A stretch of DNA of 64,000 nt from Candidatus Planktophila lacus. Its GTDB lineage: Bacteria > Actinomycetota > Actinomycetes > Nanopelagicales > Nanopelagicaceae. Below are positions 36,830-41,160 of this stretch, piece after piece. Numbering within the stretch: the stretch's first letter is position 1; every line of letters begins with the position of its first letter. The notes beneath the pieces were generated by a model. It saw only the letters and a list, made by a program, of their open reading frames with translations. It had not been told where the DNA came from and did not search any database. Both the position numbers and the translations under genes were made by a program. The stretch lies in assembly GCF_002288385.1 (NCBI RefSeq), contig NZ_CP016783.1, forward strand, positions 682,001 to 746,000, in the 5' to 3' direction.

Positions 36830-38020
36830 TTAGTTAACAGCAGCGCGTAGCGCATCGACTCGCGAAGTTGTTTCCCATGTGAAATTTGGGAGTTCGCGAC
36901 CGAAGTGGCCGTACGCAGCGGTTTGTGAATAGATTGGACGCAGCAGATTAAGGTCACGAATAATCGCAGCAGGACGTAGATCAAAGACCGTGGTCACAGC
37001 ATCTTGAATCTTCTGTACTGGAACGGTTTCAGTTCCGAAAGTTTCAACGAAGACACCTACTGGCTGTGCTTTACCAATCGCGTAAGCGACTTGAACTTCA
37101 CAGCGACGCGCAAGTCCGGCGGCGACAACGTTCTTGGCTACCCAACGCATTGCATATGCAGCAGAACGGTCAACCTTTGAAGGATCTTTACCTGAAAATG
37201 CTCCTCCGCCGTGGCGGGCCATTCCACCATAAGTATCTACGATGATCTTGCGGCCAGTTAAACCAGCATCACCCATCGGACCGCCGATAACGAAGCGACC
37301 GGTTGGGTTAATCAAGGTGCGCATATCTTTACGTGGCAGATCGATCTTGGAAAGCACAGGTTCAATAACGTGTTCAATAATTTCAGGGGTTAACTTCTTT
37401 ACAACATCTACTTCTTCAGCGTGCTGACTAGAGATGACCACGGTATCTAGCGCAACTGCCTTGTCGCCATCGTATTCAATGGTTACTTGGGTCTTGCCAT
37501 CAGGGCGTAGATATCCGAGAGCACCTGATTTGCGAACCTTGGAAAGTTGTTGTGCAAGTTCGTGAGCCAACCAAATTGGAAGTGGCATCAACTCTTTAGT
37601 GTCATCACAGGCATAACCGAACATCAAACCCTGATCTCCAGCACCTTGTAAATCTAAAGGATCGGCTGAGGATGCCACGCGATTTTCGTAAGCATCATCT
37701 ACGCCTTGGGCAATATCTTGCGATTGCTGTCCAATCGAAATAGATACACCACAGCTATTTCCATCAAATCCTTTTACTGAAGAGTCATAACCAATACCGA
37801 TAACGGTGTCGCGAACAATGCCCATTACATCTGCATATCCATTAGTTGTTACTTCACCAGCAACATGTACTTGACCTGTAGTGATGAGAGTTTCTACGGC
37901 AACGCGACTTGAGGGATCCTGAGAGAGAAGTGAATCTAAGATCGCATCCGAGATTTGATCGGCGATCTTATCTGGGTGCCCTTCGGTGACAGATTCGGAG
38001 GTAAATAGACGCTTTGACAT
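36830..38020 (-). CDS. metK: S-adenosylmethionine synthetase
   Basis: MetK makes S-adenosylmethionine from methionine and ATP. The 396 residues carry [19 protein letters not shown], the methionine-loop [12 protein letters not shown], the phosphate-binding [19 protein letters not shown] and the C-terminal [14 protein letters not shown]. All three repeats of the fold are complete. The start follows the coaBC stop by 4 bases. No SAM riboswitch fits. It supplies methyl groups to RsmB and TrmI and recycles through MetH. Confidence 0.98.
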
Positions 38021-38024
38021 GGGC

Positions 38025-39221
38025 TTAACCTAACTGAATAAGGGCTTGGTCGAGGAGAAGTTCGGCCAGCGAGTCCTTGCTTGAAGTTGGTACTTCAATT
38101 TGAGCGCCATTGCTCGTTAAAACAATTCCTTGAGTCTCAGTAGCACCGAATATGGCGCCTTCTGAAACATCGTTGAGATAGAGAATATTAGCGCCTTTAG
38201 CGACTAACTTTGCTTTAGCGATCTCAATATTCAGCGATGTCTCTGCGGCAAAGGCAACAACTATCTGTTTATCCCTTAGGCGAGCGATTGATTTAAGTAG
38301 ATCTGGATTCTCTGATAGCTCGATCTGTTGCAGATCGCCCTTCTTTATCTTGCCTTCGGAATACTGCGAAGGTCTAGCATCTGCAACCGCCGCGCTCATG
38401 ACCAATACGTCGGTCTTAGGAAATTCTTCTTCCAAAAATTGGTGCATTTCAATAGCGGTTTCAACCGGAATAACACGGACTCCTTGCAGAGCGCGAGACT
38501 CTTCCTCAGTTAACTGTGAATTAGCCATAATCAAAGTAACTTCTGCGCCACGATTTAGCGCAGCGCTAGCAACTGCTGCACCCTGTCTACCGCTAGAACG
38601 GTTGCCGATATAGCGAACTGGATCTATCGCCTCACGTGTTCCACCAGCCGTAACTAAAACTTTACGACCCAGGAAGTCCTTCTTCGCGCCAATAGCTTGC
38701 TCAAAATTTTCGATGATCGCTGCAGTTTCGGGAAATCTTCCCGGACCAATGTCATCGCCAGTGAGTCGACCTACTTCAGGTTCCATAACCTTAAATCCAC
38801 GCGATCTAAGTGTTGCCACATTTGCGACAGTTGCTGGATCCAGCCACATCTGCGGATGCATAGCTGGTACGACCAGGATTGGTACATCGATTGCGAGAAT
38901 TAGGTTTGTTAACAGATCGTCAGCGCGACCAGCTGCGATACGTGCGATGAGGTCAGCGGTAGCCGGAGCGATGATTGCGCAATCTGCATCCTTGGCAAGT
39001 GAGATATGGCGAACTTCATCAACGCGCTCCCAAACTTGCGTAGTAACTGGTCTGCCAGAGAGCGCTTCCCAGGTAGCAGCACCGACGAAATTCAGACTTG
39101 ATGGAGTTGGAACAATAGTTACTAGGTAGCCACGATCTTGCAGACGACGAAGTAGATCGCAGGATTTATAGGCAGCGATGCCTCCGCCAACTCCGAGAAT
39201 TACTTCCCGAGCGCGCGCCAT
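38025..39221 (-). CDS. coaBC: Bifunctional phosphopantothenoylcysteine decarboxylase/synthetase
   Basis: CoaBC carries out two coenzyme A steps: joining cysteine to 4'-phosphopantothenate (CoaB) and decarboxylating the product (CoaC). The 398 residues show the flavin-binding N-terminal domain ([21 protein letters not shown], the VPAMHPQMW motif) and the C-terminal synthetase domain ([25 protein letters not shown], with the KIKK lysine). Here it sits between rpoZ (24-base gap) and metK (4-base gap), the normal actinobacterial order. Confidence 0.96.
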
Positions 39222-39245: not shown

Positions 39246-39494
39246 TTAAGCAGTTGGCTCGAGGTTTTCGATGGTCAATAGACCTTCGTTGATTTCGCGT
39301 AGCGCGATTGAGAGAGGCTTCTCATGAACGTGGGTCTCAACTAGTGGACCAACATATTCAAGTAAACCTTCTCCGAGTTGTGAATAATAAGCGTTGATCT
39401 GGCGTGCGCGCTTTGCCGCATAGAGAACGAGGCTGTACTTAGAACCGCTCTTCTCGAGAAGTTCGTCGATTGGTGGATTAGTGATGCCGTCCAT
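39246..39494 (-). CDS. rpoZ: RNA polymerase omega subunit
   Basis: Omega helps assemble the beta' subunit of RNA polymerase. The 82 residues carry the conserved helical core [32 protein letters not shown], which wraps around beta', and a variable acidic tail. It lies 72 bases after the mIHF-Gmk fusion gene, the usual gmk-rpoZ-coaBC order, and an internal promoter there is possible. Short length and clear signature make the call safe. Confidence 0.95.
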
Positions 39495-39566: not shown

Positions 39567-40445
39567 CTAGCGTTGAGTCACCAATGATATCAGGTGTGCG
39601 ACGACCTCTTCTACTCGCTCATTTACCAAGGAAATATCGAAAAAACCAGCCTGGGCTAGCTCTTCTTGGGCCAACTCTAAACGCGCTGCCCTTCGCTCTG
39701 GTGAATCAGTACCACGTCCTTCTAACCGCGAAACTAACTCTTCCCATGATGGCGGCTCTAGAAATACAAGTACCGCTTCAGGGGCGCGTTCTTTGACTTG
39801 CTTAGCGCCAGCAATTTCGATTTCAAGTAAAACGCTCTTGCCATCGCGGAGCGCATCTTCGACAGGCTTGCGTGGCGTTCCATAACGAGCGCCTGCAAAA
39901 TTTGCCCACTCCAAGAAGAGCGCACCTTTTACCGCGTTATCAAATTCCTCGTCGGTATAAAAGAAGTAATCAACGCCATCTATTTCATTATGGCGCGCTG
40001 TTCTTGTGGTGGCTGAAATGCTGACCCAAAATTCGCCGGAGTCACGAAGCAATTTGGCGATCGTGCTCTTACCAACTCCCCCGGGTCCAGATAGAACCAG
40101 CAACTTTCCACGCTGAGCGGCGGCGACGCGATCAGGAAACTCTTTCAATAGATTTTCACGTTGTGAAACTCCTAAGCCTTGAATTCTGCGCGTTGGAGAG
40201 ATATTTAACTTCTCAAGAATTCCCAAGGCTCGAACTTTGCCGACCCCTGCAAAAGATTCGAGTAACTCAGCAACGCGCATCTTGGCGATCGCTTCATCAT
40301 TTACCGCCAGCGTTAAAATCGCAGAAAGTGAGAGATCACCGGCTTTCACGCGCGCTTTGATCGCAGCTCTTACTTGGCGAGAAGCGGTAGATTTCGCTAA
40401 CGCCGCAGATCTTTGTGCGGGGGTTAACTGTGGTGGCGTTGGCAT
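39567..40445 (-). CDS. gmk: Fusion of mycobacterial-type integration host factor (mIHF) and guanylate kinase
   Basis: One open frame encodes two proteins that are separate neighbours (mihF and gmk) in mycobacteria and streptomycetes. From the ATG at 40445, residues 1-103 are an mIHF domain: a basic N-terminal helix, then the helix-two-turns-helix DNA-binding stretch LLESFAGVGKVRALGILEKL (61-80). Residues about 113-292 are a complete guanylate kinase: P-loop GPGGVGKST (120-128), GMP-binding SATTRTAR and GVDYFFYTDEEF, FAGARYGTP, and the lid ERRAARLEL. The link is only about ten residues (DRVAAAQRGK). No stop or frameshift signature is seen between the domains. The frame continues to 40481, but the 40445 ATG fits mIHF length. 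Confidence 0.93.
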   Translation of the reverse strand: MPTPPQLTPAQRSAALAKSTASRQVRAAIKARVKAGDLSLSAILTLAVNDEAIAKMRVAELLESFAGVGKVRALGILEKLNISPTRRIQGLGVSQRENLLKEFPDRVAAAQRGKLLVLSGPGGVGKSTIAKLLRDSGEFWVSISATTRTARHNEIDGVDYFFYTDEEFDNAVKGALFLEWANFAGARYGTPRKPVEDALRDGKSVLLEIEIAGAKQVKERAPEAVLVFLEPPSWEELVSRLEGRGTDSPERRAARLELAQEELAQAGFFDISLVNERVEEVVAHLISLVTQR

Positions 40446-40455
40446 ATCTAAAAGT

Positions 40456-41160
40456 CTAGTTACTAAGAATTTCGCTAGCAATCAATGCAGCTTTATCGCG
40501 CAGCGCCTGTGGACCTTGGCTCCATGCCGAAGTAATAGGGCGACCAATCACCACGAAATTTGCACCTTGTGCAATTGCATCGGCCGGAGTCATCGTTCGC
40601 TTCTGATCGTCTGAGCCAACTTCAGTTAGTGGCCGCACGCCAGGGGTAATGATTATTGGCTCGCTTCCAACCGCGCTTCGAATCGCAACCGTTTCAAGAG
40701 GGGAACAGACCAATGATCTCGCTCCTGCAGATACTGCCATCTTTGCCAGAGCGACAGCGCTTTCTAGTGCGGGGCTTGCAAAACCAACTTCAAAGAGATC
40801 TTCTTCAGACAAAGAGGTCAAGATAGTTACCGCAGTCACGCTAACTTCGGGAACTGCCGCAGCTGCAGCCTTAACCATCTCTCTACCTCCACTTGCATGG
40901 ACCGTCAAAAACTTGGGAGATAAGTACGCGATGGCTTTCGCCGCACCTGCAACTGTGTGCGGAATATCGTGCAACTTTAGATCAAGAAATATCTCAGCAC
41001 CGGTCTCTTCGATAATTCGTGAAACTCCAGCACTTCCAAAGTTAAGGTAGAACTCGAGCCCCAACTTATAGACCGATACCGATTCCTTAGTGTTATCGAT
41101 CCACGCTAGAGCAGTATCGAAATCAGAGGTATCAACCGCCAGAATTATCGGGGCTTTCAT
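40456..41160 (-). CDS. pyrF: Orotidine-5'-phosphate decarboxylase (class I)
   Basis: PyrF decarboxylates OMP to UMP, the final step of the pathway encoded here. The 234 residues are the compact class I form: ILAVDTSDFDTALAWID, the catalytic DLKLHDIPHTV (Asp-x-Lys-x-x-Asp), VHASGGREM, ITPGVRP and the phosphate-binding VVIGRPITSA. Mycobacteria and many Actinobacteria have a longer class II enzyme, so the class is a small point of interest. Its ATG overlaps pyrD by 4 bases. The mIHF-Gmk fusion follows after 10 bases. Confidence 0.96.
   Translation of the reverse strand: MKAPIILAVDTSDFDTALAWIDNTKESVSVYKLGLEFYLNFGSAGVSRIIEETGAEIFLDLKLHDIPHTVAGAAKAIAYLSPKFLTVHASGGREMVKAAAAAVPEVSVTAVTILTSLSEEDLFEVGFASPALESAVALAKMAVSAGARSLVCSPLETVAIRSAVGSEPIIITPGVRPLTEVGSDDQKRTMTPADAIAQGANFVVIGRPITSAWSQGPQALRDKAALIASEILSN

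Follow-up and report, generated by a model that had tools for sequence, protein, structure and literature searches.

The mIHF–Gmk gene and its neighborhood

The window, a stretch of 64,000 nucleotides from the genome of Candidatus Planktophila lacus, carries on the minus strand, at 39567..40445, a gene for a protein of 292 amino acids in which the nucleoid protein mIHF and guanylate kinase (Gmk) are joined. The reading frame starts with an ATG at 40445, ends with the stop codon that closes at 39567, and comprises 292 codons without an internal stop, so that the original prediction of an uninterrupted joint frame was right in strand, coordinates and frame. The genome is represented by one closed contig of 1.41 Mb (completeness 99.98%) with a single match to PF00625, which makes the fusion protein the only Gmk of the cell, and with a single mIHF, the fused one; a second copy of either is not found in this closed genome. 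Accordingly annotated gene tables that list just "guanylate kinase" can conceal the sole mIHF of a cell. Besides the fused mIHF, few nucleoid proteins are found in this genome: one HU-family protein is encoded elsewhere, and a search for Lsr2 in the genome detected no match. The closest named relative of the fusion protein, with 84% identity across its full 292 residues, is from Actinobacteria bacterium IMCC26103, followed by a protein from a Candidatus Planktophila MAG (79% identity). Planktophila belongs to the Nanopelagicaceae, the acI freshwater actinobacteria (NCBI taxonomy).

An assembly or sequencing artefact, that is, a missed stop or a frameshift, would be a trivial explanation for the joint frame. 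Its probability is negligible because a joint frame of 289–321 amino acids recurs in all 45 genomes of the genus with at least 90% completeness, all independently assembled; the same frame is present in dozens of independent assemblies, including single-contig genomes. The comparison of gmk loci in related genomes, one of the checks named in the original prediction, confirms that the fusion is a real, single two-domain gene.

The fusion gene is part of an operon with the conserved order pyrB-pyrC-carA-carB-pyrK-pyrD-pyrF-mihF-gmk-rpoZ-coaBC-metK-priA-def-fmt-rsmB-rpe; in the window, pyrF, rpoZ, coaBC and metK are on the minus strand, like the fusion gene. Directly upstream is pyrF (40456..41160), with the ATG of the fusion 10 bases after it; downstream are rpoZ (39246..39494), preceded by a Shine-Dalgarno-like GGAGG, and the conserved operon neighbors coaBC (38025..39221) and metK (36830..38020). 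Among 37 loci of this operon (a set that excludes the window itself), mIHF and Gmk are the only neighboring pair that shares one frame: 20 such loci are identified by tblastn, and two more, g89b and mic66, by a profile search, tblastn having missed their mIHF. That this is the sole fused pair of the operon speaks against mere genome economy, under which other closely spaced genes should have been joined too. In Mycobacterium tuberculosis, deletion of mihF required that gmk and rpoZ be supplied, owing to polar effects, which implies that mihF and gmk are co-transcribed in this organism; its mIHF is essential and is among the most abundant proteins (PMC6155035).

Domain architecture

The N-terminal part of the protein, residues 1–103 (40137..40445, minus strand), is an mIHF domain with the S13-like helix-two-turns-helix (H2TH) region. 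It is recognized by PF22525 (83 bits) and by the NCBIfam actino_IHF model NF041260, which aligns residues 5–103 to model positions 3–101 of 102 (116 bits against a cut-off of 60), and both PDB entries 6tob (M. tuberculosis mIHF) and 4itq (Streptomyces coelicolor sIHF) align to residues 4–103. The domain retains R23, R26, G69, I82, R86, R87, G90, G92 and Q95, and across the fused Nanopelagicaceae proteins the net charge of this half is +5 to +12. The signature RRxRGLG of the H2TH region appears here as RRIQGLG (residues 86–92; 40170..40190, minus strand), with Q89 in the place where most stand-alone mIHFs have arginine and with the other positions retained. This signature is typical of the family without being an absolute requirement, given that the separate mIHFs L115, L123, L164 and L197 lack it. 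The family is typically one of small stand-alone proteins; in the window, mIHF is a domain inside a larger protein.

The C-terminal part, residues 113–292 (39570..40109, minus strand), is a guanylate kinase domain, matched by TIGR03263 (206 bits against a cut-off of 160, residues 113–290 aligned to model positions 1–179 of 180) and by PF00625 (141 bits). Gmk is responsible for an essential step to GTP. The P-loop, GPGGVGKS, is found at residues 120–127, and the near-invariant residues (those conserved in at least 97% of the separate Gmks, from V117 to N275) are retained, with the exception of I143, N153 and D247, which are variable in the fused forms. Both family models are therefore matched over nearly their full length and above the curated cut-offs, as expected under the original prediction that a complete mIHF is joined to a complete Gmk. 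In comparisons with the three nearest relatives, dN/dS is 0.01–0.13 for the mIHF half and 0.03–0.08 for the Gmk half, both being rough values with synonymous sites near saturation. Judging from these sequence comparisons, purifying selection acts strongly on both domains.

The two domains are connected by a linker of about 9 amino acids (residues 104–112, PDRVAAAQR; 40110..40136, minus strand), close to the predicted ten or so. Its sequence is common to close relatives only and is not conserved across lineages. In an AlphaFold2 model built with 26 fused sequences (mean pLDDT 88.5, pTM 0.60), the linker is of low confidence and flexible, the pLDDT falling to about 64 at residues 101–110; the model thus predicts two well-formed domains the mutual orientation of which is not fixed. 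There is no PDB chain that spans both halves, the structural relatives matching either one or the other.

Should an internal start within the fusion frame be used as well, the cell would make the full-length protein along with free Gmk, a case raised in the original prediction as one that would count against the fusion. An in-frame ATG located exactly 15 residues ahead of the P-loop SGP is indeed retained in a sister subclade of the genus (15 sequences of g1, L023:940-1809 among them, a few with a Shine-Dalgarno-like stretch); it could be a site of internal initiation or what is left of the old gmk start. In the window, TTG codons occur at −19 and −4. The positions of the start codons nevertheless vary by lineage, the Shine-Dalgarno-like stretch is absent in most sequences, and L102 and L124, which belong to the subclade of the window, lack all three start codons (ATG, GTG and TTG) in this region. 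An internal start is thus not conserved; it may be used in the sister subclade, but its use in addition to the full-length start appears improbable. Separate Gmk could still come from proteolysis or from unconserved internal initiation.

Phyletic distribution and origins of the fusion

Within the Nanopelagicaceae, the genes are fused in the genera designated g1, g2, g3, g4, g5, g7, g8, g9, g12, g14 and g16 and separate in g6, g10, g11, g13, g15 and g17; in a few drafts from fused genera, the frame is shortened (e.g., 249 amino acids in G060 and 225 in G155). A marker-gene tree was built from up to 12 neighboring genes, with gmk and mihF left out; FastTree and a quick IQ-TREE run concur on the main points, with the long branch of g12 placed differently. 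In this tree, the basal genera g6, g15, g10 and g13 have separate genes and the fused genes are found in the crown, which also includes g11 and g17 with separate genes. The well-supported branches force three changes, which can be read either as a single fusion that was later split in g11 and in g17 or as several fusion events. The mIHFs of g11 and g17 share with the fused forms a PP at the N terminus and an altered motif; these shared features favor secondary fission in g11 and g17 but do not prove it, since the changes could predate the fusion. In nine g11 and g17 loci (L038-L040, L042-L043, L046-L047, L050 and L054), mihF and gmk overlap or adjoin, with the junctions ATGA, TAATG or TGATG. 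Two MAG contigs whose titles name Bifidobacterium breve (L127) and Candidatus Fonsibacter lacus (L158) carry mIHF/gmk loci of the Nanopelagicaceae type, and the corresponding public MAGs accordingly look mislabelled or contaminated.

When the class was searched with a profile built from the fused proteins, stop-free joint frames were found in 12 of the 13 genomes of the family f31, the thirteenth (G346) having two broken matches, and in both genomes of the genus g89 from the family f29, in which the other genera have separate genes. The named genomes indicate that f31 is the Microbacteriaceae: Curtobacterium is assigned to this family by a taxonomy look-up, and the other fused genera, namely, Pseudoclavibacter, Agreia, Frigoribacterium, Frondihabitans, Cryobacterium, Leucobacter, Microbacterium, Gulosibacter and Agromyces, we take to belong to it as well. 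The fused Microbacteriaceae have genomes of 2.8–4.3 Mb. Separate genes are found in Streptomyces, Mycobacterium, Nocardia, Rhodococcus, Corynebacterium, Arthrobacter, Rothia, Cellulomonas and Thermophilibacter. The premise that mihF and gmk are separate in most Actinobacteria thus holds for the genomes sampled, yet the genes are fused also across the Microbacteriaceae examined. A phylum-wide profile search of 198 genomes yields no further stop-free fusions; in approximately three dozen of these genomes, the two domains lie in one frame with one to three stops between them. In the tree, the Nanopelagicaceae, the Microbacteriaceae and g89 stand well apart from one another, with separate-gene relatives next to g89. 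Given the positions of these three groups on distant branches, the mIHF–Gmk fusion arose independently at least three times.

Position 89 and the H2TH motif

At position 89, the third arginine of RRxRGLG, most stand-alone mIHFs have arginine, and so do those of the basal Nanopelagicaceae genera with separate genes; the residue is Q, G, A or K in all fused Nanopelagicaceae proteins, and G in all Microbacteriaceae proteins and both g89 proteins. Altogether, this arginine is absent in all 23 fused rows compared and present in 8 of the 14 separate rows. Separate mIHFs without it are those of g11 and g17 and the stand-alone proteins L115, L123 and L197, which come from two g89 relatives and Streptomyces spiramenti. 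Whether the arginine loss depends on the fusion was assessed with a sign test on independent pairs, in which the association is not significant: no pair opposes the link, and the independent events are too few (p 0.125–0.5). In M. tuberculosis mIHF, an arginine, Arg173 in the old numbering, is reportedly important, and position 89 of the window protein presumably corresponds to it. The fused mIHF half probably binds DNA through a contact that is altered or less strong. The ratio of mIHF to Gmk divergence is 1.35 in the fused Nanopelagicaceae and 1.64 in the Microbacteriaceae, compared to 0.92 for the stand-alone mIHFs of other Actinobacteria, and given this faster relative divergence, the fused mIHF half might bind DNA less well or no longer.

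Functional implications

The available observations are best compatible with a stable two-domain fusion whose halves work independently and in which the kinase is fixed to the nucleoid protein at a 1:1 ratio, a reading that we consider probable. The ancestral state would have been an adjacent, co-transcribed mihF-gmk-rpoZ array; the stop codon of mihF would have been lost with an in-frame join in an ancestor of the crown Nanopelagicaceae, and separate joins would have occurred in the Microbacteriaceae and in g89, which belongs to a third family. One mRNA would then give one polypeptide in which a short flexible tether links an N-terminal mIHF H2TH module to a C-terminal Gmk, the latter predicted to make GDP from GMP. 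Independent function of the halves is most likely; the outcome would be production of nucleoid protein and kinase at 1:1, and part of the Gmk pool may be carried on the nucleoid. Given this fixed output and the abundance of mIHF in M. tuberculosis, we infer that the fusion must either raise the level of Gmk or lower that of mIHF relative to the mycobacterial arrangement.

There are two other interpretations of the fusion. Under the first, the genes almost touch and are often in the same frame, so that an easy and harmless stop loss was fixed by drift or streamlining. The single stop that parts same-frame mihF and gmk in many actinobacteria, the overlapping or nearly touching genes of g11 and g17, and the small, compact genomes of the Nanopelagicaceae all agree with this possibility, but most lineages that are one stop short of the fusion stay unfused, the other operon pairs, several of them overlapping, remain separate in the 37 loci, and the much larger genomes of the fused Microbacteriaceae imply that streamlining is not required. 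As a complete account it is doubtful, although it is compatible with the 1:1 two-domain fusion with independent halves, explaining the origin of the gene and not its function. Streamlining as a sufficient cause is ruled out by the fused Microbacteriaceae together with the lack of any other fused pair in the operon, and economy of the start signal, the alternative offered in the original prediction, is a poor general explanation, since the other neighbors in this compact operon are unfused.

The second interpretation is regulatory coupling, the kind of link from nucleotide supply or ppGpp to chromosome structure that the original prediction suggested, whereby binding of GMP, ATP or ppGpp by the Gmk half alters DNA binding by the mIHF half, or self-association of Gmk confers multivalency on mIHF, so that the purine state would be linked to chromosome compaction. 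The three or more independent origins, the singularity of the fused pair within the operon, the H2TH-motif change shared by the fusions, and the Rel/SpoT protein encoded in the genome are in line with such coupling, as is the inhibition of Gmk by (p)ppGpp in several phyla, which acts via the Gmk dimer interface, the sensitivity depending on the lid and this interface (PMC6783271). Two prerequisites of a ppGpp link are present, the Rel/SpoT protein and the retention of nearly all near-invariant Gmk residues. Conversely, the domains are not packed against each other in the AlphaFold model, the linker sequence differs between lineages, g11 and g17 keep the genes separate, and the arginine loss shows no significant dependence on fusion, all of which makes coupling unlikely. 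In its strongest form, the idea is that of a repeatedly selected metabolic-chromatin switch, in which a modified mIHF would bind DNA according to whether Gmk is occupied by nucleotides or ppGpp or associates with itself. This is a long shot; if true, compaction of the nucleoid would be coupled to the purine state in bacteria that are among the most abundant in freshwater. The recurrence of the fusion itself provides a natural experiment on whether nucleoid proteins are physically linked to GTP metabolism.

Comparison with known systems

The mIHF half belongs, over its whole length, to the same family as M. tuberculosis mIHF (Rv1388; PDB 6TOB) and S. coelicolor sIHF (SCO1480; PDB 4ITQ and 6BEK), with which it shares the place in the operon beside gmk and rpoZ, the conserved glycines and the arginine pair that opens RRxRGLG. 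Those two are separate small proteins with arginine at the site, in contrast to the window protein, which has Q89 and in which the domain is the N-terminal half of a Gmk. Compared with bacterial Gmks (TIGR03263; e.g., 1ZNW from M. tuberculosis and 4QRH from Staphylococcus aureus), the kinase half has the full domain, the P-loop and the near-invariant residues, and differs in the 103-residue predicted DNA-binding domain at the N terminus. The nearest counterparts in architecture are the mIHF–Gmk proteins of the Microbacteriaceae (Curtobacterium, Microbacterium, Leucobacter, Agreia and others), which have the same domain order in a stop-free frame but are of independent origin; their motif is KRxGGLG, and their mIHF half is more divergent, scoring 52–80 bits against a custom profile compared to approximately 107–138 bits for most stand-alone forms.

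A search of the open-access literature, which leaves out most subscription journals, found no paper that describes an mIHF–Gmk fusion. NCBIfam types actino_IHF as an equivalog_domain, which allows longer proteins, and its cut-off admits the Microbacteriaceae fusions; this typing and the permissive cut-off suggest that annotators have probably already met longer proteins of this kind. Thus, both halves represent known families, and what appears to be new is their fusion, which is of interest for its recurrence and for the motif change that the fused forms share.
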